Source: Sipunculus nudus (Eukaryota; Annelida; Sipuncula; Golfingiida; Sipunculidae). Taken from it: a DNA stretch of 64,000 nucleotides. Location of the stretch: positions 45,040,659-45,104,658 of the forward strand of contig CM049313.1 of NCBI GenBank assembly GCA_026874595.1, written 5' to 3'. Below are positions 4,224-52,221 of the stretch, one piece after another. Position numbers and translations under genes: made by a program. Within the stretch, counting starts at the first letter, position 1, and each line of letters begins with the position of its first letter. Under the pieces are notes generated by a model. It was not told where the DNA came from, made no database searches, and saw only the letters and a list, made by a program, of their open reading frames with translations.

Positions 4224-5006
4224 TATTGTTTCCCCAGACAAAGTTGTGATACTATGGTTTAAGCATGGTCGCACCACGCTGATTTCGTTTGGATGCAATA
4301 ATTTTTTGCGAAATTTTGCATGTCCATTCATCTTCGATACCTCCATATTGTATTCAAGACTGGTGGTGCTATCTGAAATTGTAATTGTATGGTGTCCATC
4401 CGTACGTTTGCTTTTGGTGAAAATTGCTCATATCTCCAAAATGGTTCAAGGTATTTGCCTGAAATTTGGCAGTTTTCTCGTAAACCAGACAGGTGGCGCC
4501 ACCTTTCCCGTTTTTGTAGAATAAATTAATGCCCTTTTCTGAGGAGTGATTGGCCAAAACTGTGCATATCCACAGATCTTGGACTCCTCCATCTTGTTCT
4601 CAAGCTTGGTGGCGCCATCTGCAATTGTTTTGTTCTGGCATCCATCTGTACATGTGCATTTGGATGAAAAATGCTCATATCACCGGAGTGGTTCAAGGTA
4701 TTGGTCTTAAATTGGGCATGTCTATCCATCTTGGAAAATGTTCTTGTATACTAGACAGGTGGCGCCACCTACCTTCCTGTTTCTGTGAAACAAATTAACG
4801 CTCTTTTCTCAAGCGAGATTCAACAACAAATTGGCCGCGATATTTGGTGAAAAATATTGTTCCCTAAGGTGATAGATGGAAGAAACCAAAGTTGCTTGCC
4901 AAGTGTCAGTATATGCTGCTGAAGATGGGGGCTTATTCTAAAAGGGGTGGGGGGGGGGGGGGGGTCAATTGTCTGGGGATACTATCAGGTGCCAAGAAAT
5001 ATCTAG
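4224..5006 (+). mobile_element. Helitron-like family B, short copy
   Basis: The left end (TATTGTTTCCCCAGAC, then GATACTATGGTTTA and GGTCGCACC) matches the reverse complement of the right end of the copy at 49974-51927. The right end, GGTGCCAAGAAATATCTAG, is the family's CTAG terminus; half of its hairpin has been lost here. Between the ends are about three diverged monomers, two with the GGTGGCGCCACC palindrome, and a long G tract near 4950-4965. It is non-autonomous; no protein is encoded. The ends are clear only by comparison with other copies in the window. Confidence 0.6.
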
Positions 5007-5990
5007 TGATTATTATCCAGAATTGGAGATCAGGCTTTGTTTGCCCTGTATATATATGCTTAAGTAAATCCCACAATTGAACTGACATATATCAAACTTG
5101 ACTTGTATATGAACCACCAATAAAGTAAGAACCCTTTTGATTCAGGATCATGAGGTCAAGGTCAAAGGGCCCACTTCTTTAAAAAGATTTTGGATTCATT
5201 TTAAGCCAAACATTTCATCTCAGAACCTCCATCTTCCACATATGGCTCACCTGCCTATAGGGGAATATTCTATTTGATTTTGGGGTGTCAAGGTCACTGG
5301 GACTATCCATTCACAAATTAGTTTAAGGAGGATATCTTCCGTTTGTGTAGACAAATGGGCTTCAAACTTGATCAGAGGTCCCACAGTTTGAAAAAGCTCA
5401 TAAACTTATCCTTCTAGACCAGACTGGTCCCTAGGGACATCAAGGTCTCCGGACACAATGTCCTGCTGTAAAACCAAGAAACAAACTTCCCAGGGGCTGT
5501 ATTTAAATTCTGCCTTTTTATATAATTAAGTTAAACTGAGATAATAAAAAATCTCTCCAAATCTTGTCCAGCACAAATTTGTTTGATTAGGGGTAAACTT
5601 ATAGTTGTAATAGACTAGTAATATTATTAGTGGTACAGTGGCATCACTGTTCTGCTTGTATGAAATTATTGAAAAATGTCTTTGCAGCACAGTTTATTTG
5701 AAATACATTATAGTTCTTCTGACTTCTAGTTGGTGCTAGCTTTGAAAAACAAGTAGTCCACGATGCTAAGCTGAATTATGCATGCATTAATCATTGTTGT
5801 TATGATCTGGTGAAAAAATATTTGATAAGGAACCTTGAACAATGGGTAGAATTGCTTCCAGAGTGCTCAAAATCATACTTTTTTCCCATAGTTATTAGAA
5901 AATATGTTAGTGATATTATTTCAGGTTTCCAAGGAATTTTTACTGAAACCTCCCTTGATCTTATAGGGTGCTCAATTCATGTTTCTTCAT
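5007..5990. other. Intergenic, diverged repeat remnants
   Basis: No gene is seen. At 5145-5170 and 5280-5300 there are fragments of the AGGTCA-rich monomers that are better preserved at 30.6-31.3 kb. The rest is AT-rich with no recognisable structure. Confidence 0.5.
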
Positions 5991-7235
5991 GTGACTATAA
6001 GTCATCTGAGCTATAGTCGTAGTCCATTGTCCGTCGTCTGTCCGTCCGTCCGTCCATCCGTAGATGTGGCACGTTTTGAAACCGTAAGACCTAGGAATCC
6101 AAAATTGAGCATAATGTTAGATGTCCCCAGGATCTCCTACCAAGCCGAAAACTGGGTCTTTGCGACTTTGTTCCTTTGAGAAATTAAAGAAAAACCTCAA
6201 TTTTTATTAAAAATCTACTTTCACACATCAGGACTGCCTAATATCAAAACCACTCATCTGTTTTTCCTCATATTTAGGGTAGTCCTCTATATAGTTCCTA
6301 TGTACATGCCAGAAATTAGGTCTGTATTATATAATTTTAAAAAGTTATGGGCCCAAACATATTGCACTTTGTAAAAAAACAGGAAAAATATTTGGTCACT
6401 TGACACAAAAAAATGTTAAAACTAGGGACTTTTTCAGTAATATAACTTAAAATAATCATAATTTAATTGTATACCCAAAATTAGATCAAAATCTTTTTAA
6501 ATTTTTAAAATATCAGCAAAAATATAAAATTGGTACCTTAAATTTTACCCAAATTTGACCATGGCACGTTTTTTTTTTCTCATAGGTATATTTAATTTAT
6601 TTTTCACAGCTTGGATACATGTGGATTTCATTTGTTGAATTCTGAAATTAGAAAGTAAAAGCTTAAAATTTATTCTAATTATTGATTTTTTCAGAAGCTC
6701 TTTTTGCAATTCGCATTTTGTACATCCAAGACCCCACTCTTGCTCACTACAGCATTGCCTGGGTAACCTTTAATATTAGTGATGCAGCACTGGCAGAACG
6801 GCCCTGCTGTAATAAACATACACTTATTCTCATGGGCCCTACCCTAACAACCCCCCCCCCCCCCAGTTGTCCCCCCCCCCCCCCTCCACACACGCACACA
6901 CACACCACCACCATCACCAATTATATTGCAATACATGGTTTGTTATTGTCAACTGTATTTCTTTAAATGTAAAGCTGTTTTTGATCCAATGTGCACAACT
7001 TTTCCTGAAATATTAATTCAAGAAGTAATCCAAGAGATGCCACGTTGTTCTAATGTAGCATTTTAAGAAAATTATTTCCTTTTAAATAATTAAACAAAAT
7101 ATAATTTAACCCATCAGTAGGCATAATTTGATAAAATATGTAGCAAATCATGGATAAATAAAGGTGCAATTTAAAATTGTGAATTCTGGAGTGTTATTTT
7201 CATATATATTATTGCTTTGCAAAATTAAAAAATAT

Positions 7236-8689
7236 ATTTGTATCCGCCAAAACGAAGTTTTGCGGATACTGTGTTTTTGACCGGGTTCCGCCGCCGCGTT
7301 CGTTTCCGGAGAACTCGTCTGAGACTACCAGACGGATTTTTCCGAAACTTTCACAAATTATCGGGTCACATGTGAACTGGTGCCTAACCAAGTGACCTTG
7401 ACCTCTAACCTTTCCTCTCTGCCAAGCGTCCGATTGTGCGTCTGTTTCCACACATAAAGCCACATATCTCGGGAACCGTTTGACCGATCAGGAAAAAAAA
7501 TTTACACAAATGTAGCCCTGAGATAGCTTTATAACACACAAAAAAAGGTGGCGCCACCTGCAACCATGTTTGCATAGTGTCCATCTGTTCATCTGTCTTG
7601 GGTTTAAATCACTCATATCTCTGCAGTGGTTTGACAAATTCACCTAAAATTCGGCATACGTATACATCCTAGATAGCTTTCTGGATTTTATGACAGGTGG
7701 CGCCACCTACATTCACGTTAACGCTGCAGACATCCAAGCTCATATCTCGGGAACCGTTTGGCCGATCAGGAAAAACATTTTACACAAATGCAGCCCTTGG
7801 ATAGCTTTTTAACATACACATAAATGGTGGCGCCACCTGCAGGTATTTTTGCACAGTGTCCATCTGTTTGTCTGCCTTAGGTTAAAATCACTCATATCTC
7901 TGCAGTGGTTTTACTAATTCACCTGAAATTCGGCATGCGTATACATCCTAGATAGCTTTCTTGATTTTATGACAGGTGGCGCCACCTACCTTCACGTTCA
8001 CGCTGCAGACATCCAAGCTCATATCTCAGGAACCGTTCGACCAATCAGGGGAAAAAAAATACACAAATGTAGCCCTTGGATAGCTTTGTAACATTCACAA
8101 AAATGGTGGCGCCACCTGCAGCCATTTTCGCACTGCGTCCATCCGTTTGTCTGCCTTGGGTTAAAATTACTCATATCTCTGCAGTGGTTTGACCAAATTA
8201 CCTGAAATTTGGCAAGCGTATACATCCCGCAAAGCTTCTTGATTTTATGACAGGTGGCGCCACCTTCATTCACGTTCACGCTGCAGACATTAATGCTTAT
8301 ATCTCCGGACTCGTTTGACCAATCAGGAAAAAAAATTACACAAATGTAGCCCTTGATTATCTTTATAACATATACAAAAATGGTGGCGCCACCTGCAGCC
8401 ATTTTTGCACAGCGTCCATCTGTTTGTCTGCTGTTGGATAAAAGCACTCATCTCTGCAGTGGTTTGACTTTTCCACATGAAATTTTGCATGTGTATACAT
8501 CTTGGATAGTTTCTCGTTCAAATAACAGGTGGCGCCACCTACAATCATGTTTATGTGGCAGAGATCCATTCTAATATGTAACACATGTAACTCCATTTCC
8601 CCTTGCCACTCAATCCATGCCTCACTTCACCCGTCCTACTCTGATTTTGGCGGATACACGTAGTAACTTGTCGACTACCCATATTTTAG
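7236..8689 (+). mobile_element. Helitron-like family F element with central tandem repeats
   Basis: The left end carries a hairpin at 7240-7269 (GTATCCGC..AAAAC / GTTTT..GCGGATAC). The motif recurs inverted near the right end as GGCGGATAC (8649-8656), followed by a GTAGT/ACTAC hairpin and CCATATTTTAG. The middle is four copies of a ~278-bp dimer. This is the layout of Helentron-type non-autonomous elements: 5' hairpin, subterminal inverted motif, central tandem repeats, 3' hairpin just before a CTAG-like end. The class is an inference; the structure is directly visible. No protein is encoded, and the reading frames across it are repeat artefacts. Confidence 0.65.
7400..8580. repeat. Tandem array, ~278-bp dimer, GGTGGCGCCACC in each half
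   Basis: The 12-base palindrome occurs at 7547, 7696, 7826, 7975, 8105, 8253, 8382 and 8528. The spacing alternates at about 149 and 130, so the unit is a dimer of two related ~140-bp halves. Each half has CTCATATCTC, a TTTGACC-like block, a 'TACATCC..GATAGCTTT' block and then the palindrome. The same array recurs at 62840-64000. Confidence 0.9.
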
Positions 8690-10220
8690 TTTATAAAAAG
8701 ATATATATATATCTGTGTGCATAATTTTATGTTACCTGACTAAATTTAGTATAAATGTTGATGCAATTTAGATTTGTGAATCAGTTCAAATATTGAGATA
8801 TATATGATATACTGCAAATATATAGTAAAATTTATAAATAAAAAAAATGACTTAACAAAAGAAAAAATAGGATTATATGCAAATATTTGTTCATTATTTT
8901 CCTGTCTCAGTAGAATGGAAATTAAAGTTTTATGCTTTGTTTTCCATCTCTCTGCCTGTTTTTAAATATTGAAAAATAATTTCTTTTAAATTAAAATTTA
9001 TCCTATATGTATATGCAGAGGTGCTGTAACTCACACCAGTCCCTGTAAGCACCATTGACCCCCGCCCCCCCCCCCCCCCCAATTATTTTTAACCCTAGTT
9101 TTAAGATATTAGCATAAATATAAAATCAGTACCTTAAATTTTGCCCAACTTTGGCCACGGCACATTTTTTTTTTCCTGTAAGTATTCTGGATTTTATTTT
9201 CACAACATGTACACATAAGGATTAAATCTGATAAAATCTGAAATTTGAAAATAAAAGCTGCAAAATTAGGCTAATTATTGAATTTTCTTTTAGGCTCTTG
9301 TTGTATTCCCTCACATTGTCAAGCAGTCCACTTCGGTCACTGTAGGTCATTCAGTGCATCGCTATGCTCCCCTGATGTTATGTTATCCCATCACTGGGGC
9401 AAGCCCTCACTCTTGTTGAGCTTGATCAGGCTGTCCTGCAGTTAATACTACAGGGAGCCTTTCTCTCTCAACCCCCCCCCCCCCCCCCCCCCATTCTGTT
9501 GACAGACCTGTACTATAAACAAGATTAATCTTATTATTTCACATTTTTTTCAGCAACCAGCAACTACAATAGAGACCCCTCCACCCACCCACCCCTTCAA
9601 TACACAGGACTAATAAACAAGACAAATCTTATAATTTTAATGTTAAATAAATTCTTTTTGATGAGACTTGGACATTTTGATTTTTTTTAAAGAAAAAAAT
9701 GTTTAGGAATTTAATCCTTATATATTCAAATGAGATAGATTTAAGATAGATTTTAACAAGATTTAATAAGATATAAATACTTTGTAGCATTTCATTCATA
9801 TCTCTTAAAGTTGGCCGAGCCTAGGTGTGAATAACACTGTTAAACTTAGTTTTAAAATCAGGAATATTGGTCAAACTTTGTGGGATTAATTTTTAACTAT
9901 TGTGGCCATATATTTAACTTTTGATAACTTAATTACCATCACACATTATTTGTTTATGAAATGTAACTTTTAAATAACACTTACCGTAGGCCAATTGTTT
10001 TCCCTAGGTGCACCACTAAATGGTTTCAGGCCAAAAATTTCATTTATTACACAGTGCATATGCTTTAGCTCATGTCCATTATTCTATGATTTACAGAGGT
10101 CCATTTTCTCTTAGCTTTTCAAATGGTAAGATACATGAAAAACAAAAAGAAATAAAAATATTTTGCAGTTACTAATATTTTACAAAATTCAGCTGAGCGA
10201 CGTGACCCATGGGTCCCTTG

Positions 10221-13200
10221 TTTATTCACGTATCTTGCAGAATATAGGTCACAGTGACCTTCTTTCAGATGTCCAAAGTGACTTTACATTGACCATCCTT
10301 TACATTAAGAAAGACATTTCCAGATCCAACCGTTAAGACAGTCTCCTGTCTTCCCGGGTTCTCAAAATTAAGTTTCTCGGTCGTAGCTCAGAATATTGGT
10401 CATCATGACCTAAACTCAGGTGGTAAAGGAGATTTGCCAAGACCCTCCTTGAATTTTAAGTTAAAAGGTATTGATTTGTGGCCATCTGACTTTTATCAGT
10501 GATAAAATCATGTCTTTTCCTAAAGCTCACAGAATATAGGTCACGGTGACCCAATTCAGGATTCAAATGAATCTTGCCAAGGACATCCCTGGATGTCATA
10601 TTACAAGGTTCTAGGTCCAGCAGTAAAGTTTTGTGCTCCGCCTGCTTGTCTGCGTGCTTAAAATCATTTTTTGACCGGTCGCTCGCAGAAAATATAGTTA
10701 ACATGACCTCAAAATATAGGTTTCCATGACCTAATTTCAGGTTTCCATGGAGATTTGCCCATAACCTCCCTGGATTTTGCGTTTGAAAATTCCAAGCCTT
10801 AGGATATAATTTGTACCCCTTCTGACCAACTGGATACTCAAAATCATTTTTTTTTCGGCCAGTCGTTCGCAGAATAGGCAACCATGACCTAATTTCAGGT
10901 TTCCTAAGAGATTTGCGTAAGACCTCCCTAAATGTACAGTTGGAATTATTAGGTCGTACGGTTACTTTGGTGCCCTGTAAACGGCCGGACTGCTTCATTT
11001 GAATGTAAAAAAAATAGAGAAAATAATTCGTAAAATTAGTACAGATGGCGCCACCAGTCTTCAGTTACTTTTGAAACACTTTGATCAATAGGCATGGACA
11101 TCAAACGTTTGTAGTCCCCCCCCCCCCCCCTATAATTACCCATATTATAAGTGAGCCTGTAAACTTATGCGAGGGCGTAGCGTCGTCCGTCCGACGTCGT
11201 CCTTACGTTAACCCATGCTATCTCAAAAACCTTCAGAGCTAGCAGCGCCAAATGTTATGAAAGAATTGGTTCCATGTCGAGCACTATCGGATTGAGCTTA
11301 TCTGATTGAGCAATCTACAATGACTTAGAATTAACAGGTAAAAAAGTTTAAAAAAAACTTTAAAAATCTTCTCCGAAACCGTCCAGCCAAATTGTTCAAT
11401 ATTTCACAGACATAATCCCAGAAACAATCTTTCTCAAGGTTACAGGAAGCTGAACTTAGTCATTTGTGGAATAAAAGCATACTGAAATTACAATCTCAGA
11501 AACAGCTGGAGCTAACATCACCATTTATGCAAATGTTGGTCACGTGAGTCATATGCATCACCTACCACAAATTACAGTTTCCGGGGGGGGGACTAAAAAA
11601 CATTGAAAATCTTCTTCTCCGAAATCACTCAGCAAAATTGTTCAATATTTTACAGAAATTATCCCAGAGATCAACTCTCTCAAGTTTGTCCAAATGGTTT
11701 GGGTTTGATGAATTTTGGCCGAGTTCCAGGACTTTGTACTAAGTCATTTGGCCAATTAAGCAAACTAACCTAACAATATCAGAAACAACAGAAGCAAGCA
11801 TCACCAAGTTTGTATAAATAATGAAAATTGAGATTTTAGTGGCGCCACCTACATCGACCTGTTTTTTTACGAGCAAAAAAACTCGTAATAATTTAATTTT
11901 TTTACGAGAGTTATCCTATAGTAGGATTCTCTCAACTGTACAAGAATAGATCGAGCTCATTGATTTTTGGTAGAGTCATGGGAAACTGAATTTGGCCTTG
12001 TGGCCAAGTAAGCTTTTGTCAAACTGAGGGCCGCAAAAGTCTAATTCTGCAAAACTGTTGTTTCAAAATCCGTAACATTGCACAAAATTATACCTAGGTG
12101 GCCTTTTTTAAAAGTTTACTTATATGATTTTTTGCTGAATTATTGGACAGTCAAAGGACAGTGAGATACTTTGGTAAACACAGCTAGTAGATTTATTATG
12201 GAAGTAAGCTGGGCTCTGGGAGCTTTACAGGCAACATAAATAATTGATGTCCATATCCAACTCATGTGTTAGCTAAATCCTTGAATTAAATATATCTGTA
12301 TTCTAATTTTGCTGTTAATAGGTATTTGTTATTATTCAAAATATAAAAATCTTATGAATATGTCAGCATGAAAAAAAGTATTGTAGCCAAAGTTTTGCAG
12401 TATGTTTAAACAGATTAGGCAACAGGCCAGGATATTTCTGTATCTATAAATAGCTTGGCAGGCTGCCAACTATTTCAGATTTATGTTTCAGTCTGTATCT
12501 ACTATAACCCTGGCAAGCTGCCAAAGTGACAGATTAGGCAACAGGTAAATAATTCACCCATGGCATAAGGTACAGGTCATGAATTCACTCAGCTGCAACT
12601 TAAAATTAGTTTCGGTACACTTGGGTACAAGTGCAGCTGTCTTCCTCAGTTAAGCTTGGTCATCCGAGTGCACCTGACTGAGAAGTTTGATGTGTCCGCC
12701 TGAAATTGTGGCCTGCCCATTCATCTTAGATGGCGTTCTCGTACACAAGACTGGTGTCGCCACCTACAATGCATTTTTGCTGGACTGTTCATTATATATG
12801 TAGTTTTCTTAGTGAATGTCACTGCTTGTTTGCTGAGTGTAAGTTTTTTCTAAGGAGAGATTTTATATATCAGCCTGAAAATGTGCACTTCTTTACATCT
12901 GGGATGGCTTTGTCATGTACAAGAGTGGTGGGGCCACCTACAATTGTGCATGTACATACATCTTGAACAGTCTCGTTGTATACAAGACTTGTACCAATTA
13001 CAATCATTTTTCTGTTGTGTCAATCCATGTCACTATTTCAGGAGAGACGTTTGTGTAATTGGTGCTGATACTCCTGTCCAAAATATTGACTTGTACTTGC
13101 ATTGTACATGTCCACGCCACACATGTACTTGAAAAGTAATCAAGTACTTTTCAAATAATGATAAATCATGTTATCACGGAAGCATTATATCTGATGTATA

Positions 13201-23532: not shown

Positions 23533-23695
23533 CAAGGGACCCATGGGTCACAGCGCTCAGCTGAAGTTTGAAATTTTTGCAAATGCAAAATATTCTATTG
23601 TAATGTATTTTCCTTTATATATAATCATATGAGAGGCTAAGAGGAAAGTACGGAAGCGTATTGCTGCCACCTAGTAAAAGAAAATAAATTATTTA

Positions 23696-23850
23696 TCTCG
23701 TACGTACGACATAATATCTAGTACGTACGACATAGTATCTCGTACGTACGACATACTATCTCGTACGTACGACATAGTATCTCGTACGTACGACATATTA
23801 TCTCGTACGTACGACATACTATCTCATACGTACGACATAATAAATCTTAC
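23696..23850. repeat. 21-bp tandem repeat, seven units, left arm
   Basis: Seven units of 'CTCGTACGTACGACATAxTAT' in tandem, each containing the palindrome CGTACGTACG. Confidence 0.95.
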
Positions 23851-23898
23851 GGGCCTGTTTCTCAGACTACACAACAGACCAACTGATATATGTATAAG

Positions 23899-23900
<2 letters not shown>

Positions 23901-23953: not shown

Positions 23954-23955
<2 letters not shown>

Positions 23956-38202: not shown

Positions 38203-39047
38203 CTAGATGTGTCGGAAGGACGCGAATGCCCCAGTCTGGGGCAAATTAGAAACATTTGTTAAATTTTGTAAACTTTTTTTAAGTTTGGGAGGTGTCATAT
38301 GGTCAAAAGTAGGTCAACAAGGGCAAAATGCAAACTTGATCTGTAACGTGTCATTATCAAGCGACACACCAAAAATCAGGCCAGTATCTGCAGGCATTGT
38401 GAAAAAAGTCCATACATGTGCATTTTTCATAAAAATTTCTGTCTTCATGAAATTTTCAATGTCCAGGATCTCTGTCATATGGTAAAAAATAGGTCAACTG
38501 GGATGAAACGCGAACTTGATCTGTAACTAGTCATTATCTGCCCACACACCAAAAATCAGGCCAATATCTACAGGCATTGCAAAAAAAAAGTCTGTACATG
38601 TGTATTTGTCATGAAAATTTCTATTTTTCATGAAATTTTCTAAGTTTAGGAGACGTAAAACGGTCAAAAGTAGGTCAACCGGGACTAAACGCGAACTCAA
38701 TCTGTAACTGGTCAATATCTGCCCACAAACCAAAAATCAGGCCAATATCTGCAGGCATTGCGAAAAAATTCTGTACATATGTATTTGTCATGAAAATTTC
38801 TATTTTTCATGAAATTTTCTAAGTTAAGGAGCCGTAAAACAGTCAAAAGTAGGTCAATCGGGATGAAACGCGAACTCGATCTGTAACTGGTCATTATCTG
38901 CCTACACACCAAAAATCAGGCCAATATCTGCAGGCATTGCGAAAAAAGTCCGTACAACTGTTTGATTTCGGAAGGACGGAAGGACGGAAGGACGGACATG
39001 GGTAAAACTATATGCCCCGGCCACTTTGTGGCTGGGGCATAAAAAAA
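38203..39047 (-). mobile_element. Helitron-like family C element, complete
   Basis: The left edge is CTAG (38203-38206) with hairpin TGCCCCAGTCTGGGGCA just inside. There are four ~175-bp monomers (each with 'GGTCAAAAGTAGGTCAAC', 'CTGTAACTGGTCATTATCTG' and 'CAGGCATTGCGAAAAAAG'). A GGAAGGACGGAC microsatellite follows at about 38968-38998. The right edge is hairpin ATGCCCC..GGCCAC/GTGGCTGGGGCAT plus an A-run. The two ends share the GCCCC..GGGGC motif. It is an exemplary member of the shared architecture. No protein is encoded. Confidence 0.75.
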
Positions 39048-39710: not shown

Positions 39711-40091
39711 TTAATGAGAAATAAAAGCCTGAGATTTTTCTTTGACTTTTTCATTAATATTTGCATAATATTTCAGCCTTGCTAAAAGCTCCTTTGCTTG
39801 CTGGTAGTCCTTAGTTTGAAATGCCTGACTGATCTCTGCCGTGAGTTTAGTTAAAACCTCCTGATTTTCCTGACCAATGGACACCACAGCATCTTCAGAG
39901 TCGGCATCAGCCAGATCTTCATTCAGTTCCATGATTTCCATCAGAAATTCTGGATCCATTTGTATCTCATCCTCCTCCAAACAATAGCCAGCAAGCTTCA
40001 GCATATATAAACCTCTTGCCAATGGTTTTGCAAGAGTCACATAGGCCTCATTAACCAAAGCTGACTGCAGTTCAGAGTAAGTCTGCTCCTC
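39711..40091 (-). CDS. HSCB: HSCB iron-sulfur co-chaperone, exon 2 (end of J domain and ISCU-binding domain)
   Basis: The acceptor is TATTGCAG; the exon is in phase 0 and encodes 126 residues, starting EEQTYSELQSALVNEAYVTL. It matches the human continuation of the J domain (STLVNDAYKTLLAPLSRGLY). LARGLYMLKLAGY is the strongly conserved helix, and DPEFLMEIMELNEDLADAD corresponds to human DRQFLIEIMEINEKLAEAE of the C-terminal three-helix HSCB domain that binds the scaffold ISCU. ELLARLKYYANINEKV ends the family signature (human ILTKMRYFSNIEEKI). Stop at 39713-39711. With exon 1 the protein is 355 residues, against ~235 in human; the excess is all N-terminal. Confidence 0.96.
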   Translation of the reverse strand, partial: EEQTYSELQSALVNEAYVTLAKPLARGLYMLKLAGYCLEEDEIQMDPEFLMEIMELNEDLADADSEDAVVSIGQENQEVLTKLTAEISQAFQTKDYQQAKELLARLKYYANINEKVKEKSQAFISH

Positions 40092-41365
40092 CTGCAATAT
40101 AAAGTTAAATATGGTTAAAACTTAAAAATGTTTACCGAGCACATGTGTCTGGCAAGGGGAAGCATGCTCATCTATATAGAAAACAAAGGACCAAAGGGTC
40201 ACAGTGCTCAGCTGAAGTTGACCTTGAAGGTAAAAATATAAAATAATATCAAAGGGAGATAAAGTCTAAGCGGAAAAGGTAATATAGGCCATGGCTGGTT
40301 GACATGATTGGGTTTGTATTGATGTGTAAGAAATTGTTGCAAATAATATTTTGTGACCAAAACATGCATTTCCTAATGTTAAAATTGAAGCATGTGATCA
40401 GTTTGTGAACATAAGATGAATATTATAATCATGATCATTGGTTGACTTTTTGATAAATTGTTGACAGTCCAGTAGTTTACACATTTGGTAAATTGGATCT
40501 ATATTTTATAATATATTATTAGATATATGTATTTTTTTTTTTTATAAAATCTATACAGTTGAAATATAATTAATGTCCCAAGTCCACAGTTGCAAGGACT
40601 ATGCTTACAGGATAAAGAAGTTCATTCACATTTATTTAATATTTAAAAAAGGACAAACAAGACTGGTAGACAAACAAAGCTGATAAAATATGAAGTTTCA
40701 ATTATTTCTTATTTTTTTTTATTATATCAAATTGTTTAACATCTGCAATATCACACAACTGAATATATATAAGTTGCTCTCAAGTTTCAGACCTGAATAG
40801 CTTAAATCAATCTACATACAGCATATGATAGTTATTTCAACAGTGCTGATAGGAATATCTTCATAATTAATATATATTTAATGATAATGGAGAGATGATG
40901 GACAGACAGAGCTGATAACTTTATGTTCCCTTCTCCTGAGGCAAGAATATGTTTGAATTAAATTTTAATTTTTTCTTATCAATTATTTTTTAAGTTAAAT
41001 CTATTTTACACATTTGCAATAAAAACTAATGTCCCAGTGCACAGGTGCAAAGGAATCAATGGCAGCAGTGTGAGTGTGTGTGTGTGTTGGGGGGGGGGGG
41101 GTAGCATTTACAACACTTCTGTATATACATACTGGGCAAACAAAACCTGATCTCCTATTCTGCTGAGGTAGGAAAATAATGAACAAATGTTTGTATTAGA
41201 TCCTCAATTTTTTATCACATCCATTTTTTTTAATGTTTAGTTTATATTTCTACACATTTCCAATATAATATATATATCTGAATCTAAAAGTTGATTTATA
41301 ATTCTAGATTGCATCATCATTATTCTCAATCTTGTCAGATCATGCATACAATATGTATATATATA

Positions 41366-42564
41366 CAGTGGAACCCCACAATTACGACCACCCTGGGGAC
41401 TGAGCAAAGTGGTCGTAATTTGGGGGTGGTCGTATTTGTGAAACTCTTACCGTGGTCGCATATAATGTGTATAATATTTAATGTGTATCAGAGTTTATCT
41501 ATTGCATATCTTTAATGTGAATTATAACAAAAATTTTTACTTAGCGGAGGACCCTTATTATGAATGTCTTTTTTGTGTGTAGCTGAACATATTTTTTTCA
41601 TGATAAAAATTAATATACATGTCCACATACGTAGTGACTGATGATTAACAAATAATAACACTAAGGCGATACGATTACAACCTACTGAATGCATATTGAA
41701 CATAATACATGGCTGTCATATATTTAGCCTTCCGCTTGAGTATATATTGCGTGCACTCGAGTTTTCCTGACGCTTAACTGCTGAGCCATTTGGTGCTGAC
41801 TGCGCGTGGTGTTTGCCGCCTTGATTAACGCCACTTTATCCTTCAAGGAGAGCTCTTTCAGAGGCATGGTTGCCTAACAGCAAGCAAGTTAAATGCAAAC
41901 TTAACCAGTAGAGAAATAAACTGACAACGATCTATCAGAAAAGGCAAGTTAATGTGAGGGATTTTCCCCCCATGCAAGCTTTATTTATACATTTTACTGA
42001 CTGCTCAATGTCAGTAAGGTATGAACACATTTAGGATTAACTAGGTCGTTAATTTTACCAACGAGGATCGAACAATATGTGATGAGTTGAAATACTTAGG
42101 GTAGCTGTAATACAGGTGATCACTGAGGGGCAATTAGCATCTGACCCAAGGTCAGACCGGCTCATTAAGTAATCAGGCCGATGGTTACCCTCTTTGATCT
42201 ATAACCAACACCTCAACGAGTCTCAGCGAAGACACCGAGTCGGGAAGATATGCGGGACCAGATTAACACTCGGGTTAAGAAACCTTGTTACCCGCTTTGA
42301 TCTTTCGTTAAGGCGCCTGTGACAAGACGCAGCCATTGACTCATGACAAATGTTGTTTCAGTATTTCTCGGCGGTGGTCGCATTAGCGGGGTCGCATTAG
42401 CGCTGGGGCCAGGAAATCTGGTCGTAATTCTGAATTCAGGGGTGGTCGTAATTTTGAGTCATTTTTAAACATAAATAAACTAAAAAAAATTCGGGACCAA
42501 GCAAAATGGTCGTAATTGTGGGATGGTCGTAATTGTGAGGTGGTCGCAAGGCGGGGTTCCACTG
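41366..42564 (-). mobile_element. pogo/Tigger-like DNA transposon remnant
   Basis: The termini CAGTGGAACCCC and GGGGTTCCACTG are exact inverted repeats flanked by TA on both sides (41364-41365, 42565-42566). CAGTxGAACC ends and TA duplications are hallmarks of the pogo/Tigger branch of Tc1/mariner. Subterminal 'ATTACGACCA' repeats occur in both arms. A broken transposase start lies inside at 41724-41867. The family A copy at 46.55 kb shows the sequence without the insertion. Confidence 0.85.
41724..41867 (-). pseudogene. pogo/Tigger transposase N-terminus (CENP-B-type HTH), truncated
   Basis: From ATG at 41867-41865 the frame reads MPLKELSLKDKVALIKAANT, then SQHQMAQQLSVRKTRVHAIY, and stops at 41724 after 47 codons. 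This is the psq/CENP-B N-terminal helix-turn-helix of pogo-class transposases (the 'LSLKDKVxLI..QLxVSKTxVxxI' pattern). The DDE catalytic part is missing, so the element cannot move itself. Confidence 0.8.
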
Positions 42565-42570
42565 TATATA

Positions 42571-43218
42571 GATGAAGCCGCTTAATTGCAAGAGGCTTTT
42601 GTCATGCAAATTTGTTGCAATTAACCGAAGTTGCATTTAGGCGAAGATCTCCGTCTTCCATGTGTAAGGGGAAGCAGAATGATCGATTGGACCACAGAAT
42701 ATCTAATTAATTTTGCATTTGTTTTGTAACACTATTCATATTGTGATAAAGAATAAAAACACCAGTATTAGAAAACTTTTATTAAAAATAAAAATATATA
42801 CAAGAGAACACATTAAAACATATAGAGAATTATTTAAGATCACATATATTAACAAAGGCAATTTCTTCATATACAAAAAAATATACAAAATATGCAAAAT
42901 GTCCGATGTAATTTTCATCATGTTAACACCTAAAGAACTCTGTGATTTGCTTCTGTTTTACGGTGAGTTGAGCTGATCATTATTGGGATCACACAAACAC
43001 AACCCACCGACTCATTGAAGTACTTGCAATTAACATGAGTTTTCTGCCTTTCTGTCCATATTTTCCCTTGCATTAATCGGAAGTTTGCAATTATGAGGCT
43101 TCCGATTATGCGGCACGTTTTTCATGAAAACATTTAGGAAATGGTTTTGGTTTTCAGAATTTCTTGCAAACAAGCAGCGTTTTCTGTTAACCGACCTGCA
43201 AATAAGTGGCGTCATCTG
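42571..43218. mobile_element. MITE adjoining the pogo-like element
   Basis: The left end GATGAAGCCGCTTAATTGCA and the complement of the right end (CAGATGACGCCACTTATTTG) form an imperfect ~20-bp inverted repeat, with TATATA outside both. Internal 'TTGCAATTA' motifs recur toward both ends. It is absent from the collinear family A copy at 46.55 kb. No coding sequence. Confidence 0.6.
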
Positions 43219-45042
43219 TATATATTTTACCACAAAAATATATCTTTTAAAATTGCAAAACAATAAATATCTAAAATTAATACCTGATTCAGATTTCACA
43301 ATTTTAAATTCTGCCTTTATTTATCAATAATTTGGTTTATATTTCATAAATTTATGCATACTGATGGGTCTTATTCTATTTAAATCGGTTAAAATCATTT
43401 AAAAGAAAATTGATTTCTTTAAAAATGCCACATTAACCCAACATGGCATCTTTCAGATTACTCCTTGAATTAATTTTTCAAGGAAAGTTTTGTATATTGG
43501 AGTGGAAACAGCATTTCAACTACTAAATCAGTGCATTTAATAACAATTACTGCATAACACTTGATGTGTAGGGTTGGCCGTGGGGGGGGGGGGGGGGGGG
43601 GGGGAGAGAAAGGGGTGGTATGAGAATAACTGTACACCTGTCTCAGCAGGGGATCTCCCCCAGTGACTGTCACAATTCAGGAACCCTGGCATAGCTGACT
43701 TCCAGTGACCAGGTGTGGGTGGCCTGCATATGGATAAACCAAGTAACTACAATATACCCTAAACAAAAATTTCTATAACTAGCCTAATTTTCAAGCTTTT
43801 ATTTTCAAATCTCAGATTTTAACAAAATAAATACTTATGTTTACATGCTATGAAAATTAATTCAACAGTACTCACGGAAAAAAAAAATGTACCATGGTCA
43901 AAGATGGGCAAAATTTAAGGTAATGATTTTATTTTTATGCTAATAACTTAAAAATTTACAAAATTTGGATCTAATTTTGGGTATACAATTGAAACTTAAT
44001 TAAACAAAGTTATATACTTGGAAAAAAATCTCTAGCTTCAAAAATTTTCATGTTCAGTGAGTAAATATTTTTCCTGAACCTTTACAAGCTGCATTGTGTC
44101 AATGCTCATAACTTCAAGAAATTACACTTAACAAACTTAATTTCTGGCATTAATATCATATAATACAGGAAATATATTGGAGAATACTTCTGGTTAATAT
44201 TAAGGAAAACAGATCAGTGGTTTTGATATAAGGCAGTCCTGAAGTGTGATGATAGGATTTTTATTGAAATTTGAGGTTTTTTTTTAATTTCTCGAAGGAA
44301 CGAAGTCACAGTGACCAAATTTTTGGTTTGGTAGGAGATCTTGGGGACATCTAACATTTTTGGATTCCTAGGTCTAATGGTTTCAAAATGTGCCAGTCTA
44401 ACGGACAGACAGATGGACCACGGACAATGGACCACGACTATAGCTCAGTTGACTTACTGTCAGCTGAGCTAAAAAGCTTACTAAATTAAATGCAAAATAT
44501 TTTTAATTCAAGAAAAAAAGGATCTGGATCAATTCTGTTTAGCATGTGTACACTTTTCCAAGTTTTAAACTAGAGACTAATGGGTCTTGATTCTCAGCTG
44601 AATTTGTCTTGAGGATATTTTGTAAGATTTTTCAAAATGTGGGTCAAGTGTCCTTGACCCTTGACTTTGTAACCTAACAAGAGACCCATGGAACACAGTG
44701 CTTAGCTGAAGTTCACCTTGAAGGTTAAAAATCTAAAATAATAACAAATGGAGATAAAATCTGGGAGGAAGAGGTAACATAGGAGAGGCTGGGTTGACAT
44801 GATTGATTTGTATTGATAATTAAGAAATTGTTGCAAGCAAAAGTTTGTGATCTAACATTGTGTTTTCTATGTTGAAACTAAAGTATGTGAACAGTTTGTA
44901 AACAGAAAATCTTTACTATGACAATGATAGTTGGTTGGCTCTTTGATCATTGGTTTGCTCATTGATATGCTGTTGACGGATGAGCAGTTCACAAATTTGT
45001 TTAATTAGATCCTAATTATTTTTATTATACCATTTCTTTCAA

Positions 45043-45500: not shown

Positions 45501-45924
45501 TATAACATGGGACCCATGGGTCACGGCGCTCAGCTGAAGTTTGAAATTTTTGCAAATGCAAAATATGCAAAATATTCTATTTAAATGTTTTTCATATATA
45601 CAAGCATATGAGAATCTAAGAGGAAAAGGGGCCCTCCTATTTGGTTATAGTAAAGTTCTAAATATATGATTGCAAAACTAATACTCTGACAAGACTGTCA
45701 TGAAGAAAACAGTAAAAGTTTTGAGATACTTTGATGCATATGAAAAATTTACAGATGCACAGGCAAGAGGACAGAATTGACTAATACCTTTATTTCACTT
45801 TCAAGGGAATAATGCATTTAAGTTTATATTTAAGCCTATTTTTTAGCATATCCACTTTTTCCATTAACAGTTTTTATGAGATTCATTTTTTTTTATTTAC
45901 AAATTTTATAAATTTGTAATAAAA

Positions 45925-47796
45925 CAAGGGACCCATGGGTCACTGTGCTCAGCTGAAGATGACCTTGAAGGTAAAAATCTAAAATATGGAGATAAAGTGT
46001 AAGAGCAGGAGGTAATAAAGGCCATGGTTGGTTTATATGATTGGTTTGTATTGATGAGCAAGAAATTGTTGCAAATAATATTTTGTGACCTGACCATGTG
46101 TTTCCTAATGTTGAAACTGAAGCATGTGAGCAGTTTGTGAACAAATGATCTGTACTATTACCATGATCATTAGTTGGCTTTTTGATTAACTGTTGACATT
46201 TCAGTAGTTTACACATTTTTTCAATTGAATCTATTTTTTTTTGTATAATATATATTATTAAATATATATAAATTTTATGAAATGTATACAGTTAAAATAT
46301 ATAACTAATTAACAACATAATACAGGGAATACAAAGCCTGATCTCAAATTCTGCTGAGGCAGGAAAATAATGAACAAATGTTTGTATTAGATCCTCATTT
46401 TTTTATCACATCATTTTTTTATTATAAGTTTATATTTCTATACATTTCCAATATGACATATATATCTGAATATAAAAGTTGATTCAAAATTCTAAATTGC
46501 ATCATCATAAATCTCAATCTTGTCAGATAACACCACATCATGCATACAAATGTTTATTTATTTTTTACCACAAAAATATATCTTTTAAATCTGCAAAACA
46601 ATAAATATCTAAAAATAATTTTTGCTTAGATTTCACAATTTTAAATTGTGTCTTTATTTATCCATAATGTGCTTCATATTTTATAAATTTAAGCATACTG
46701 ATGGGTTCAATTATATTTGTTAAATTTCATTTTAAAGAAAATTGATTTCTTTAAAAATGCTACATTAACAGAACATGACATCTTCTGGATTACACCTTGA
46801 GCTACTTTTTCAAGGAAAGTTTTTGTATATCGGAGTGGTAACAGCATTACAATTAAGGAGATACAGTGAAAACAATAACAATTACTGGATAACACTTGGT
46901 GGGTTGGGTTTGCGTGTGTGGGGGGGGGTGATTGAGGTGGTGATATGAGAATAACTGTACACCTGTCACAGCAGGGGATCTCCCCCAGTGACTGTAACAA
47001 ATCAGAAACCCTGGCATAGCTGACTTCTAGTGACCTGAGTTGGACCCTGCATCTGTAATCAAAGCAAATGACTACAATAGAGCCTCAAGAAAAAAATCAA
47101 TAACTAGCATAATTTTCAAGCTTTTATTTTGCAAATTTCAGATTTAAACAAATTAAATACTTATGTTTACATGCTGTGAAAATTAAATCAATGGTACTTA
47201 CAGGAAAAAAACGGCCATGGTCAAAGTTGGGCAAAATTTAAGGTACTGATTTTATTTTTATGCAAATAACTTAAAAAATTTACAAAATTCAGATCTAATT
47301 TTGGGTTAACAATTGAATCTTAATTATACATAGTTATATACTAAGGGAAAATAGACTCAAGTTTCAAAATTTTTCATGTTAAGTGAGTAAATATTTTTCC
47401 TGATTTTTTACAAAGTCCATTATGTTCGGGCCCATAACTTAAAGAATTTATACTTAACAGACTTATTTCTGGGATGTACATAAGAACTATATAGAGGAAT
47501 ATTTATGGTAAATATGAGGAAAAACAGATGAGTGGTTTTGATATTAGGCTGTCTTGAAGTGTAAAAATAGGTTTTTAATAAAAAATTGAGGTTTTTCCTT
47601 AATTTCTCAAAGGAACGAAGTCGCAAAGACCCAGTTTTTGGCTTGGTAGGAGATCTTGGGGACATCTAACATTATGCTGAATTTTGGATTCCTAGGTCTT
47701 ACGGTTTCAAAACGTGCCACATCTACGGACGGACAGACGGACGGACAATGGACCACGACTATAGCTCAGATGACTTATAGTCAGCTGAGCTAAAAA
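45925..47796 (-). mobile_element. Helitron-like family A copy (A5), inserted in A4
   Basis: Complete: CAAGGGACCCATGGGTCAC at the left, and at the right a GGACGGACAGACGGACGG tract, hairpin TAGCTCAGATGACTTATAGTC and CAGCTGAGCTAAAAA. The flanks (TTGTAATAAAA on the left, TCTGATAATATAAGTTAAAA on the right) are contiguous in A1 at about 25705-25730, so this copy inserted into its own relative. Confidence 0.78.
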
Positions 47797-48069
47797 TCTG
47801 ATAATATAAGTTAAAATATCAGAATTCTAAGTTGCAATCATTATTTATCCAGAGTGATGCTCATATCAGGTCATTAAATAAGCATACACATATATTTTAT
47901 TATTTTTAAATCACAAATGTTCAAACTGAATTTAAAAGAAAATAATGGCACAACATGGCATCATCAAGATTATTCCTTGAATCACTATTAAAAAGTTTTG
48001 TACATTGGAGTTTTTAGTACATGCTTAATTTTATTCACCGAAATAAAAGATTCAGTAAATCTGATAAAA

Positions 48070-49110
48070 CTAGAATATCAGCAGAAGCTGACAAAAGCCC
48101 TCAGCCAAAAGAACAGTGTTTAAAGGTGGTAACAGTAACAAGTACTAAATATCTGTTCTGACATTGATGTATATCTGTACATGTCTCAGTTATAAATTTA
48201 AAATGGAGAGGTATGTACCATGATTCATAACAATCCATCAAATGCTTCCTGAAAAATAAGCTTCTAAGTTTTATTCTATTATAAGCTCTGTGACCTTGAA
48301 AAGTAGGTCAAGGTCACCCATCTTCGAACTTGACCAAGATTTTGTCGATATACATCTTCACCAAAGAAATAAAATTCCTATTGTGAATCCTTTTAGAGAT
48401 ATCCCGCTCACAAGGACAAAGTTGATAAATCCAAGAAAAATTCATTAAAAATCAGAAATTGTAGGTAGCACCCCCAAACTTGTGCAGCAGTTACAGACCA
48501 TCAGTCCCTATGATCATAGTAAGTATTGTGAAATCCACCCTATGGTTCCTGAGAAATAAGCTTCAAAATGTTTTTTCTATAATCAGATCTAAAACGTAGA
48601 AAAATAGGTCAAGGTCACCCATCTTCAAACTTGACTGAGATTTTGTCAATATACATCTTCACCGAAAAAATAAAATTCCTACGGTGAATCCTTTTTGAGA
48701 TATCCCGCTCACAAGCCCAAAGTTGAAAAATCCGATAAAAATTCATTAAAAATCAGAAATTGTAGGTGGTGCCACCAAACTAGTGTAGCAGGTATAGACT
48801 ATAAGTCCCAATAATCTTAGTAAGTTTTGTGAAAATCCACCAAATGGTTCCTGAGTAATAAGCATCTAAGTGTTTTTCTATAATCAGCTCTAATATGTAG
48901 AAAAATTGGTCAAGGTCACCCATCTTCGAACTTGACCGAGATTTTGTCAATATACATCTTTACCGAGGAAATAAAATTCTGACGGTGAATCCTTTTCCAG
49001 ATATCCCGCTCACAAGGTAAAAGTTAACGGACGCCGGACGGACGGACAGACGGATGGACAGCTTGGGTGACGACAATAGCCCATCAGCCTAAGGGCTGAG
49101 GGCTAATAAA
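48070..49110 (-). mobile_element. Helitron-like family D element, inserted in A4
   Basis: The left edge is CTAGAATATCAGCAGAAGCT (hairpin TCAGC/GCTGA) with subterminal GCCCTCAGCC. Three ~260-bp monomers follow (each with 'GGTCAAGGTCACCCATCTTC', 'ATATACATCTTCACCG' and 'GATATCCCGCTCACAAG'), then a GGACGGACGGACAGACGG tract. The right edge is hairpin AGCCCATCAGCC..AAGGGCTGAGGGCT and TAATAAA. Its flanks are contiguous in A1 near 25970-25990. No protein is encoded. Confidence 0.78.
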
Positions 49111-49973
49111 ACCATCTTTTCAAATAAAGTATACACACTGTTAGTTGAATGAGGGACAAACAGCATCATATTTTTTACTGGAATTAATAGTCAATTTCAC
49201 ACCTGGTGACATTTTTACTCTTCTGAAGTAAAGAATTACTTATCTGATGAACATCCACACTTTCATATAGCAATACACCACCTCGTGGACACAATTATAT
49301 GTGCATTTTATTCATTGTAACCCTGGTGGTACAAATATGTACAATACAAAATCTAAAATGTAGCACAGCCTAGAATAAGAATGAATCAAATACAGAAAAT
49401 TTGTTTATGCACCAGCAGGGGGGGGGGGCAGAGGGGAAGCCTGCTAGTAGCTGAGCAAAGGCAAGCTGCCTGGAGAGGGTTACATAATACAAGTAAAGGC
49501 TGTACTACTAGGTGGGCCTGATGTAAACAACACTTGACATGGTGTATGAAAACTTGAATAAAAGCTTCTTTTTTTCAATCAATTCCTTTGAAATTTCAGA
49601 TTTTAAAAGATTAAATGCTTATGTATATATGCTGTGAAAATTAAATCAACAGTGCTTACAGGGGAAAAACGTGCCGTAGCCAAAGTTGGACAAAACTTAA
49701 GGTATTGATTTTTTATTTATGATAATAACTTAAAAAATTTGCAAAATTCAGATCTAATTTTGGGTTAATAATTGAATCTTGATTTAATAAAGTTTAACCC
49801 AGAAAAAAAAGCCTCCAGCTTCAGCAATTCTTATATTAAGTGAGTAAATATATTTCCTGACTTTTTAAAAAATTGTATTACATTTGGACCCATAACTTCA
49901 AAACAATACTCAATACTGACCTAATTTTTGGTATGTTAATAGAAAATGTATGGAAGAATATTAATACTAAATA

Positions 49974-51927
49974 CTAGATATTTCTTGGCACCGCAGGTGC
50001 CATAGTATCGCCAGACAATTAATCCCCCCCCCCTTTAAGAATAGGCCCCCCATCTTCAGCAACAATTAATATCAGACCACTCTCATAGAAAAGGTCATTC
50101 TCATAGAAAAGGTCATGATCCAAATTTCAATATACATCATCCCCTAACCCATGTCTATGTATATGCAAGAAATCTGTCCATTAGTTTTTGACTTATAATG
50201 CTCACAGTACTGATAAATGGCAATGATGGGGTATTAAACGGCACAAAACAAGTAAAAGAATAACAGGTGGCGCCACCTGTTTCCGGTACATGACAATACT
50301 TTCCAAGATCTTCGAACATGTTGATTTTTGGACCAATGCATGCATCCCTTATTGAGATATTAATGATTTTGTGTAATTTTCACCATATATGGCAATATTC
50401 AAGGTCAAGGCCACTCTAATAGGAAAGGTCATGACCCCAATTTATATATACATTATCCCATAACCCATGTCTATGTATTTGCATAATATGAAAGAAATCT
50501 GTCCATTAGTTTTTGACTTATAATGCTCACAGGTTATAAATGTACTGTTAAGTGGCAATGATGGGGTATTAAAGGGCACGAAAACAAGTAAAAGAATAAC
50601 AGGTGGCACCACCTGTTTCCCGTACATGACAACACTATCCAAGATCTTCGTTCAAGTTGATTTTTGGACCAATCAATGCATCCCTTATTGAGAAATTAAT
50701 GATTTTGTGTGATTTTCACCATATATGGCAATATTCAAGGTCAAGGCCACTCATTGGAAAGGTCATGACCCCTATTCAAATAAACATTATCCTATAACCC
50801 ATATCCATTTATATGCATAATATGAAAGAAATTTGTCCATTAGTTTTTGACTTATAATGCTCACAGTACTGATACATGGCAATGATGGGGTATTAAACGG
50901 CACAAAACAAGTAAAAGAATAACAGGTGGCGCCACCTGTTTCCGGTACATGACAATACTTTCCAAGATCTTCGAACATGTTGATTTTTGGACCAATGCAT
51001 GCATCCCTTATTGAGATATTAATGATTTTGTGTAATTTTTCACCATATATGGCAATATTCAAGGTCAAGGCCACTCTAATAGGAAAGGTCATGACCCCAA
51101 TTTATATATACATCATCCCATAACCCATGTCTATGTATATGCATAATATGAAAGAAATCTGTCCATTAGTTTTTGACTTATAATGCTCACAGGTTATAAA
51201 TGTACTGTTAAGTGGCAATGATGGGGTATTAAACGGCACGAAAACAAGTAAAAGAATAACAGTTGGCGCCACCTGTTTCCGGTACATGACATTACTATCC
51301 AAGATCTTCGGTCAAGTTGATTTTTGGACCAATGCATGCAACCCCTATTGAGAAATTAATGATTTTGTGTGATTTTCACCATATATGGCAATATTCAAGG
51401 TCAAGGCCACTCTCATAAGAAAGGTCATGACCCCAATTTAAATAAACATCATCCCGTAACCCATATCTATGTAATGCATAATATGAAAGAAATCTGTCCA
51501 TTAGTTTTTGACTTATAATGCTCACAGTACTGTCAAGTAGCAATTTTGGGGATATTAAACGGCATGAAAACAAGTAAAGAATAATAGGTGGCGCCACCAG
51601 TTTCTGGAACATGACAACCCTATCCATGATCTTCGATCAACTTGATTTTGGGATCAATCCATGCAAGTTTTCTTGAGATATTTAAGAATTTGTGTGATTT
51701 TCCCCAAAATTGAACCTATTCAAGGTCAAGGTCACTCTCCTAGTTGAGGTCATGACCTCATTTTAAATAAGTGTCGTCCTCTCACCCATATCTATACATA
51801 TACCAAGTTTGGTAAAGATCCGTGAAATATTTTTTGAGTTATTGTGTCCAAAAGAAATCTCGGCGGCGGCGGCGGCGCGACCGTGCCTAAACCATAGTAT
51901 CTCCAGACTATGTCTGGCGATACAATA
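49974..51927 (-). mobile_element. Helitron-like family B element (B4), inserted in A4
   Basis: The left edge is CTAGATATTTCTTGGCACCG, CAGGTGCC (CTAG terminus, hairpin). A C tract and five ~330-bp monomers follow, with GGTGGCGCCACC or one-mismatch forms near 50267, 50602, 50925, 51265 and 51587. A GGCGGCGGCGGCGGCGCG tract precedes the right hairpin GTATCTCCAGAC..GTCTGGCGATAC. Family A sequence resumes directly after (CAATAACAGTCCAGTGG). The apparent - strand frames repeating KSKTNGQISFI are monomer artefacts. Confidence 0.8.
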
Positions 51928-52221
51928 ATCAATAACAGTCCAGTGGTTTTGTTATTAGGTAGCCTTGAAGTGTAACAATGGCTATTTATGGAAAAATTGA
52001 GGGTATTCCTTAATATTTTGAAGGAACAAAGTCCTAGTGACCCAATTTTAGATATGATAGGAGATTTTGGAAACATCTAACTGTATGCAAAATTTTGGAT
52101 TCATAGGATAACAGGTTCAAAACGTGCCCTGTTAATGGACGGACGGACGGCCGGACAGACGGTCGATGAACAAAGGACCACGACTATAGCTCAGATGACT
52201 TAAAGTCAGCTGAGCTAAAAA

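Follow-up and report, generated by a model that had tools for sequence, protein, structure and literature searches.

What kind of transposable element has given rise to the repeat families of this 64-kb window of Sipunculus nudus DNA (the whole stretch analysed, AT-rich with 36% G+C), and do the two ends of each family form a matched pair? The initial annotation had described five families (A, B, C, D and F) that differ in sequence and share one build, and had read them as non-autonomous Helentron-type elements; it gave no individual coordinates, and the letters were assigned to positions by our own reading. In our view it is highly probable (about 90%) that A, together with an array-bearing form A′, B, C, D and F are non-autonomous Helentrons, that is, HINE/DINE-1-like members of Helitron2. 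Their build, modular and with matched motifs private to each family, is the architecture already published for flies, mites and oysters as subterminal inverted repeats (subTIRs) or asymmetric terminal inverted repeats (ATIRs).

In the five families the 5′ end is T-rich and carries a hairpin, whose outer arm of 9–14 nt is found again, inverted, 22–32 nt inside the 3′ end. Within an element, the best inverted match of its 5′ end to its 3′ end scored 10 in A, 11 in B, 14 in C, 13 in D and 9 in F (12 and 11 in the second and third D copies), whereas all cross-family pairs of 5′ and 3′ ends scored 7 or less; 1500 random 60 × 60 pairs gave a mean of 6.0, a 95th percentile of 8, a 99th of 9 and a largest value of 22. 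The 3′ ends taken for this scoring were truncated in B (17 nt short of CTAG) and C (6 nt short), both still holding the private motif. The end motifs are private to each family, and the claim that the T-rich end bears a hairpin repeating the motif of its own family was borne out. Moreover, both strands were scanned for T-rich sequence that has a hairpin of at least nine pairs and at most one lesion and, no more than 75 nt away, a microsatellite of the GTCC or GCC type. Nine such hairpins were recovered, every one an end of A, A′, B, C, D or F, against none in six Markov controls, in agreement with the microsatellite predicted beside the T-rich-end hairpin; the filters were set once the families were already known and, with one lesion at most permitted, more decayed ends could not show. 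The microsatellite behind the 5′ hairpin is of the GCC type in C and D, and the hairpin containing the 5′ repeat is decayed in the third D copy and in the A copy starting at 5985.

At the 3′ end the proposed succession of a hairpin and CTAG (CTTG in A) holds for most families. The tetranucleotide is CTAG in B, F and the four listed D ends (the one at 5003 spotted by eye) and CTTG in eight of ten A ends, but TTAG in C, and the base that follows is T in 17 of 17 listed ends. The search patterns for the A and D ends included the tetranucleotide, with mismatches allowed, and the following T lay outside them; the ten A ends were retained from 19 matches after dropping six opposite-strand readings of the same palindromes and three weaker matches (239, 15086 and 18306), which likewise have T next. 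A separate palindrome or hairpin between the 3′ repeat and the terminus was confirmed in A (a palindrome), B and D, but it is weak in C (5 bp), decayed in the third D copy and merged with the repeat in F, where the private motif itself forms the hairpin and no other one stands ahead of CTAG. Of the 3′ ends described here, a generic hairpin-plus-CTNG scan with 17 matches recovered just that of F at 38203. A run of at least 10 G on the element strand was also seen just inside the 3′ private motif of all three D elements (4949–4964, 30550–30562 and 50024–50033).

Nested copies yield insertion borders of several Helentron families side by side from this one 64-kb window. The older A copy at 45506–52221 and its sister at 23533–26493 are collinear in four blocks of 74.5–88.4% identity, and the gaps between these blocks hold A 45925–47796, B 48070–49108 and, as part of a longer stretch, D 49974–51928; the C element at 7237–8689 interrupts a different A copy. 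The flanks of 11 candidate elements were joined and matched to paralogues in the window. Those of A 45925, B, C and D 49974 found uninterrupted paralogues across the junction at 72–82% identity, as did those of an element with terminal inverted repeats (TIRs) at 23648–25429, taken as a control; the D junction is spanned by five paralogues, three of them aligned at base level. The sites so defined are T- or AT-rich, with 3′ borders CTTG|TTTT (A), CTAG|TTTT (B), TTAG|TTT (C) and CTAG|TATT (D), and the junctions are located to within a few bases, least exactly in D. In these four families insertion borders and element ends fall together, give or take a few bases, as had been expected.

In ten elements both borders were compared for target duplications. 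TTTT stands before the 5′ stem in six of six listed A ends and ATT in three of three D copies, with varying 3′ flanks. Since these bases recur whatever the 3′ flank, they belong to the element in A and D and leave no constant duplication; the words common to both borders measure 2 to 6 nt, are mostly T-rich and vary within both families. On the other hand, GGAAAG was read on both sides of the TIR element 23648–25429, so that the comparison is able to reveal duplications at sites that are not rich in T. The published HINE analyses, in the portion of PMC4067079 consulted, meet the same ambiguity of T-runs.

Several results weigh against the Helentron assignment. The same bases occur at both borders in B (TTTTAT, which leaves the position of its 5′ border uncertain), in C and F (TTT) and in D 49974 (TATT), and in the single copies B, C and F they may be element bases or a duplication; the expected lack of a target duplication was supported in A and D, and in B, C and F T-rich bases may have been duplicated. 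Within the window, the joined flanks of the second and third D elements, F and A 40184 had no match across the junction, those of A 5985 gave only short matches (the best 84 nt at 75%) and those of A′ matched the repeat of A′ itself. The 3′ hairpins of A and C fold no better than shuffles, although that of A is a perfect 12-bp palindrome. Finally, 17 stop-to-stop frames of at least 110 amino acids in the window (10 scanned at an E of 0.01, 7 at 0.1) contained no Pfam match to a Rep-helicase.

The shared border words of B and D, together with inverted repeats and the lack of recognised coding sequence, could speak for cut-and-paste miniature inverted-repeat transposable elements (MITEs) moved by a DDE transposase, the term that the accessible part of PMC5139131 applies to the bivalve pearl elements. 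This is very improbable and was rejected: the inverted repeats are not at the very termini but asymmetric, near-terminal at the 5′ end and set well inside the 3′ end, the borders carry CTAG or CTTG followed by T, and the shared words vary in length instead of forming a fixed-length duplication (which B and C, taken singly, would still allow), whereas the TIR elements lying in the same repeats show, by reading, terminal repeats and clear duplications (GGAAAG for 23648–25429, TA for 41368–42567). Canonical Helitron1 elements, which read TC...CTRR and insert between A and T, are a highly improbable identity, even if a 3′ hairpin with a CTAG end is a Helitron1 feature, as partly consulted descriptions of Helraiser have it, and A precedes the T-run in four of six A ends, which with the T after the 3′ end would allow an A|T target in some copies. 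In the other two A ends this base is C, the 5′ ends open with T-rich runs and not with TC, and the 5′ hairpin and asymmetric repeats found here are lacking in Helitron1 in the account of it taken from PMC3627910; Helitron1 was rejected on its 5′ features. The elements have, as Helentrons do, asymmetric subterminal inverted repeats, a 5′ hairpin including the 5′ repeat, a 3′ palindrome or hairpin, T-rich insertion sites (the empty sites of A, B, C and D), a microsatellite and, except in A proper, central repeats. The Helentron-type reading is supported, the layout matching what the consulted portions of PMC3627910, PMC4067079 and PMC7492417 describe.

For such elements, an autonomous Helentron would provide a Rep-helicase in trans, which would recognise the 5′ hairpin as single-stranded DNA and nick at the T-rich end, and rolling-circle replication would peel off one strand until it stopped at the matching 3′ repeat and hairpin. 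Through the private motif the two end repeats would pair with each other and, the 5′ hairpin being lesioned and the match to the 3′ repeat lesion-free, this pairing could replace that of the hairpin and so mark the end of the element.

The lesion in question is regular. Each of the five representative 5′ hairpins has one mid-stem lesion, a 1 × 1 mismatch in A, D and F and a bulged base in B and C; all nine hairpins of the scan, which allowed perfect stems, have exactly one, 5–8 pairs from the outer end. In family A the mismatch is present in five of five aligned copies (C·T in four, C·A in one, never paired), these being five of the seven A-type 5′ ends, with the one at 34219 (which has a bulge) and the one at 5985 (with a decayed arm) omitted. 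In all five families the 3′ repeat matches the outer arm across the lesion position. Pairing of the outer arm with the 3′ repeat rather than with the inner arm was calculated at −14.0 versus −12.0 kcal/mol in A, −15.8 versus −13.2 in B, −16.3 versus −12.4 in C and −14.9 versus −10.6 in D, an advantage of 2.0–4.3 kcal/mol, and at −13.2 versus −7.3 (5.9 stronger) in the second D copy. The 5′ lesion is not shared by the 3′ repeat and, therefore, end-to-end pairing forms the stronger bare duplex in four of the five families. Moreover, the lesion column of D is the column that varies between copies: an outer-arm G goes with a 3′ C in 49974–51928 and C goes with G in the other two, so that the variable base agrees between both ends in three of three copies; with two states only, this is perhaps a single event. 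In the part of the Helitron2 paper drawn on, Bao and Jurka (2013) report a compensatory change between related elements and propose that end-to-end pairing breaks the 5′ hairpin (PMC3627910), a proposal that the D base agreement and the lesion pattern fit. The notion that each family is recognised by a matched pair of ends, already in print for Helitron2, is supported by this D base and by the specificity of the family motifs.

Whether the lesion has a role of its own is a different matter. A functional, family-independent part of Helentron ends is a doubtful though possible interpretation, in which the lesion might be read by the Rep nuclease, like the hairpin lesions of Escherichia coli TnpA_REP and IS608, or might be the weak point where the lesion-free 3′ repeat displaces the inner arm and signals the end of the element to the replication machinery. 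Were it so, each private motif would amount to a strand-exchange code addressed to its own family, and this could explain why nested families keep separate ends. Neutral, functionless decay of formerly perfect palindromes, to which we would give about even odds, has difficulty with exactly one lesion at a similar place in nine of nine hairpins of five unrelated sequences and with an A mismatch that is never paired in the aligned copies and gives way to a bulge in a sixth. Other data, however, favour decay over function. B, C and F are single copies, five of ten other strong hairpins in the window are lesioned, and two of the three D copies, the second and third, lack a clean one-lesion stem. 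The pairing step is opposed by F, whose local hairpin forms the stronger duplex (−15.0 versus −13.1 kcal/mol, by 1.9), and all the energies given here are of bare DNA duplexes and omit the advantage that a hairpin has in being local. The short 5′ hairpins of the Fusarium elements FoHeli1 and FoHeli2 are printed without lesion in the portion of PMC5148889 consulted, and a second group of TnpA_REP proteins uses perfect palindromes, so that a lesion is no general need (PMC8266576, in part). Yang and Barbash, as far as the excerpts of their paper go, describe the 5′ inverted arm as “partial and/or interrupted” across fly species (PMC2374699), and a limited literature search, covering sources in part and thus weak evidence of absence, found no discussion of a role for the lesion. 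In any case, the regular 5′ lesion makes the Helitron2 proposal of end-to-end pairing testable.

Tandem monomers had been announced for the middle of B, C, D and F, and they are there (301 bp × 2.6, 279 bp × 3.9, 336 bp × 5.2 and 179 bp × 3.6), but the A-ended A′ at 34–35 kb carries them as well (338 bp × 2.9), A proper (45925–47796) having no array. An origin of the arrays as pieces of classical satellite DNA with coincidental flanks is extremely improbable, though tandem monomers of 179–338 bp could suggest it, as could the bivalve satellites that share monomers with such elements in the consulted parts of PMC7492417 and PMC5139131. The arrays of B, C and D sit between matched ends that are insertion borders, and the array-free A 45925–47796 has ends of the same plan; bare satellite DNA was rejected on these grounds. 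The independence of the families was confirmed for the ends, which are unrelated on a common plan, but not for the monomers: those of A′, B, C and D share the palindrome GGTGGCGCCACC (in B in one copy, with one base changed), which is also found in a few unassigned places, and there is also a resemblance between the monomers of C and of the third D copy. Sites of (A)GGTGGCGCCACC(T) lie at 4492–4769, 7547–8539, 34246–34924, 50266–51598, 62965–63937 and elsewhere. With simple repeats excluded, no 12-mer of the window is as common as AGGTGGCGCCAC (28 occurrences on both strands); the full GGTGGCGCCACC occurs 17 times, and 40 times with at most two mismatches against 0.5 expected, and AGGTGGCGC 30 times against 0.08 expected, the copies within an array not being independent.

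After the palindrome was masked, common descent was still evident from the flanks for C with the third D copy and two unassigned copies, for the third with the first D copy and for the A′ copies among themselves, but the B flanks remain at or under the 99th percentile of the background. The palindrome is kept in four array consensuses, in three of which arrays some copies have lost it, and is absent from the B and F consensuses. Within the arrays its columns do not stand out clearly by their conservation: among 12-column windows it ranked 21st of 269 (tied, twice), 168th and 93rd of 267, 127th of 315 and 97th of 327. Deep descent from founder copies that each had an intact palindrome, with later decay, fits best, and the palindrome may have a role as a protein site or as an aid to array growth. 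In this regard, AGGTGGCGC fits, on both strands, the AGRKGGCRS half of the human CTCF consensus CCASYAGRKGGCRS as given in the part of PMC6746451 consulted, and none of the inspected palindrome copies has a full match to the CCASY half. A CTCF-like site, including the AGGTGGCGCCACCT monomers, is thus a candidate and a lead only; if the palindrome is more than descent, the elements may also spread a protein-binding site. Literature searches for CTCF with Helitron and with mollusc gave, judging by titles and the beginnings of abstracts, nothing on such repeats; AGGTGGCGC with CTCF gave nothing, and GGTGGCGCCACC appeared only in work on a bacterial chitinase.

A further left end, TTTAGCGAACCTGTGAGCTTATGCAATGGTGCGG, followed by GTC-rich sequence and lacking a good 5′ hairpin, was seen at 61584–62700 and, diverged, at about 11144–11200. 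Because this left end stands ahead of C-like monomers near 62.8 kb, it suggests that arrays have been swapped between element types. The ATAGGGGAAAA..CTTTAAAAATCTTCTTC stretch at 61811–61850, with a shorter piece at about 11360, presumably resembles the BIV160/Cg170-type repeats of bivalves. Judged by its repeats, the window would look like DNA of a bivalve mollusc.

The coordinates of the elements and the sequences of their ends are collected in the table.

Table. Helentron-type elements of the window, their ends and the copies that host them (positions in the 64-kb window).
Feature	Position	Strand	Description
Family A ends			5′ TTTTTAGCTCAGCTGACT, inner arm AGTCATCTGAGCT; 3′ TTCAGCTGAGC, palindrome GACCCATGGGTC, CTTG
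Family B ends			5′ TAGCCCTCAGCC; 3′ GGCTGAGGGCT, short hairpin, CTAG
Family C ends			5′ GTATCCGCCAAAA; 3′ TTTTGGCGGATAC, weak hairpin, TTAG
Family D ends			5′ GTATCGCCAGAC; 3′ GTCTGGCGATAC, hairpin GGCACC..GGTGCC, CTAG
Family F ends			5′ TATGCCCCAGCCAC; 3′ hairpin TGCCCCAGACTGGGGCA, CTAG
A element	45925–47796	−	5′ TTTTTAGCTCAGCTGACT at 47796, 3′ CTTG 45925–45928; within older A copy; empty site 25616–25805
A 5′ hairpin	47762–47792	−	8 bp, C·T mismatch, 5 bp; then GTCC microsatellite
A 3′ end	45925–45957	−	Private motif TTCAGCTGAGC, palindrome GACCCATGGGTC, CTTG, then TTTT
B element	48070–49108	−	Within same older A copy as A 45925; 301-bp monomers 48232–49016; empty site 25898–26105
B 5′ hairpin	49077–49105	−	1-nt bulge
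B 3′ end	48070–48106	−	Private motif GGCTGAGGGCT, hairpin 48078–48091, CTAG
C element	7237–8689	+	Within an A copy; 279-bp monomers 7463–8551; CCG microsatellite 7288–7298; empty site 46483–46678
C 5′ hairpin	7240–7269	+	1-nt bulge
C 3′ end	8645–8689	+	Private motif TTTTGGCGGATAC, weak 5-bp hairpin 8660–8678, TTAG
D element	49974–51928	−	Within older A copy; ~336-bp monomers 50091–51842; GCC microsatellite 51861–51879
D 5′ hairpin	51897–51923	−	G·A mismatch
D 3′ end	49974–50016	−	Private motif GTCTGGCGATAC, hairpin GGCACC..GGTGCC 49987–50001, CTAG
Second D element	30498–32624	−	C/G replaces G/C in private motif; shorter 5′ stem
Third D element	4219–5006	+	5′ and 3′ hairpins decayed
F element	38203–39046	−	179-bp monomers 38301–38956; GTCCTTCC microsatellite 38969–38996
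F 5′ hairpin	39011–39041	−	A·C mismatch
F 3′ end	38203–38243	−	Hairpin TGCCCCAGACTGGGGCA with private motif, CTAG 20 nt further
Older A copy	45506–52221	−	Split by A, B and D elements, as judged by its collinearity with sister copy 23533–26493
Sister A copy	23533–26493	−	Source of empty sites for A and B; split by TIR element 23648–25429
A copy hosting C element	5985–10220	+	Outer 5′ arm decayed
A′	33975–35266	−	A-type 5′ end, palindrome-bearing 338-bp monomers
Further A copy	40184–44475	−	By reading, split by a TIR element (CAGTGGAACC) that adjoins TA

Two TIR elements were noticed in passing, both inside A copies. The one at 23648–25429 has ends TACGGAAGCG..CGCTTCCGTA and subterminal 21-bp tandem repeats with GTACGTACGA; the one at 41368–42567, by reading, has ends CAGTGGAACCCC..GGGGTTCCACTG, and it looks like a non-autonomous element of the Tc1/mariner-pogo type. 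As for genes, the pieces present are of animal type: Pfam matched an alpha/beta-hydrolase exon at about 19 kb, a reverse-transcriptase piece at about 22.9 kb and, on the minus strand, an exon for the HSCB C-terminal domain (39711–40121); a weak tyrosine-kinase match near 2.1 kb fell under the Pfam cut-off. Upstream of the HSCB exon, a minus-strand frame at 56481–57209 has, by reading, a J-domain-like HPD motif, and gave no match in the Pfam scan. Since these two pieces lie on either side of the elements clustered at 40–56 kb, that cluster probably lies within an intron of an HscB gene. Exact-pattern scans of viral contigs with the ends of families A, D, C and F, and of genome contigs with the family A 5′ hairpin, gave no match, with near-genome records possibly excluded.

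Among known systems, Helitron2 offers a close description of the ends. As set out in the part of PMC3627910 at hand, its terminal 5′ repeat pairs with the bases that follow it downstream, giving a 5′ hairpin, and its 3′ repeat lies directly upstream of the 3′ hairpin, the same arrangement as in the window families; unlike what is seen here, that part of the text does not mention a regular mid-stem lesion. A bearing of such lesions on recognition is known from bacterial HUH nucleases, TnpA_REP and IS608, which read single-stranded imperfect palindromes (PMC8266576, PMC5934647, both in part), an analogy of recognition only: E. coli TnpA_REP is inactive once the stem is made regular, the mid-stem bulge being needed (PMC8266576). 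At the other end, the 3′ hairpin of the bat Helitron (Helraiser) acts, in the descriptions partly consulted, as a terminator.

The internal build, on the other hand, is that of DINE-1/HINE, for which the consulted parts of PMC4067079 and PMC2374699 describe subterminal inverted repeats of 12–15 bp, a partial or interrupted 5′ inverted arm, a GTCY microsatellite, central repeats, a 3′ palindrome and an unmodified T-rich target with a preference for TT, a set of features like that of the window families, in which an unmodified target is indicated for A and D. The latter differ in their private motifs and in the GCC- rather than GTCY-type microsatellite of C and D, and they have a CTAG end, which is not stated in those parts of the two texts. 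The bivalve pearl elements are likewise modular, array-bearing and non-autonomous, and one of them, DTC84, has a palindrome near the repeat junction, likened here by description only (PMC5139131, in part). Finally, the portion of PMC7492417 consulted reports eleven Cg_HINE elements with satellite-like arrays in a single mollusc genome, that of the Pacific oyster, with TT as preferred target and no duplication found. Compared by description, their 13 monomer consensuses measure 138–181 bp against mostly 279–338 bp in the window (179 bp in F), and their layout is the same: 5′ repeat, inverted arm, microsatellite, array, 3′ repeat and palindrome.

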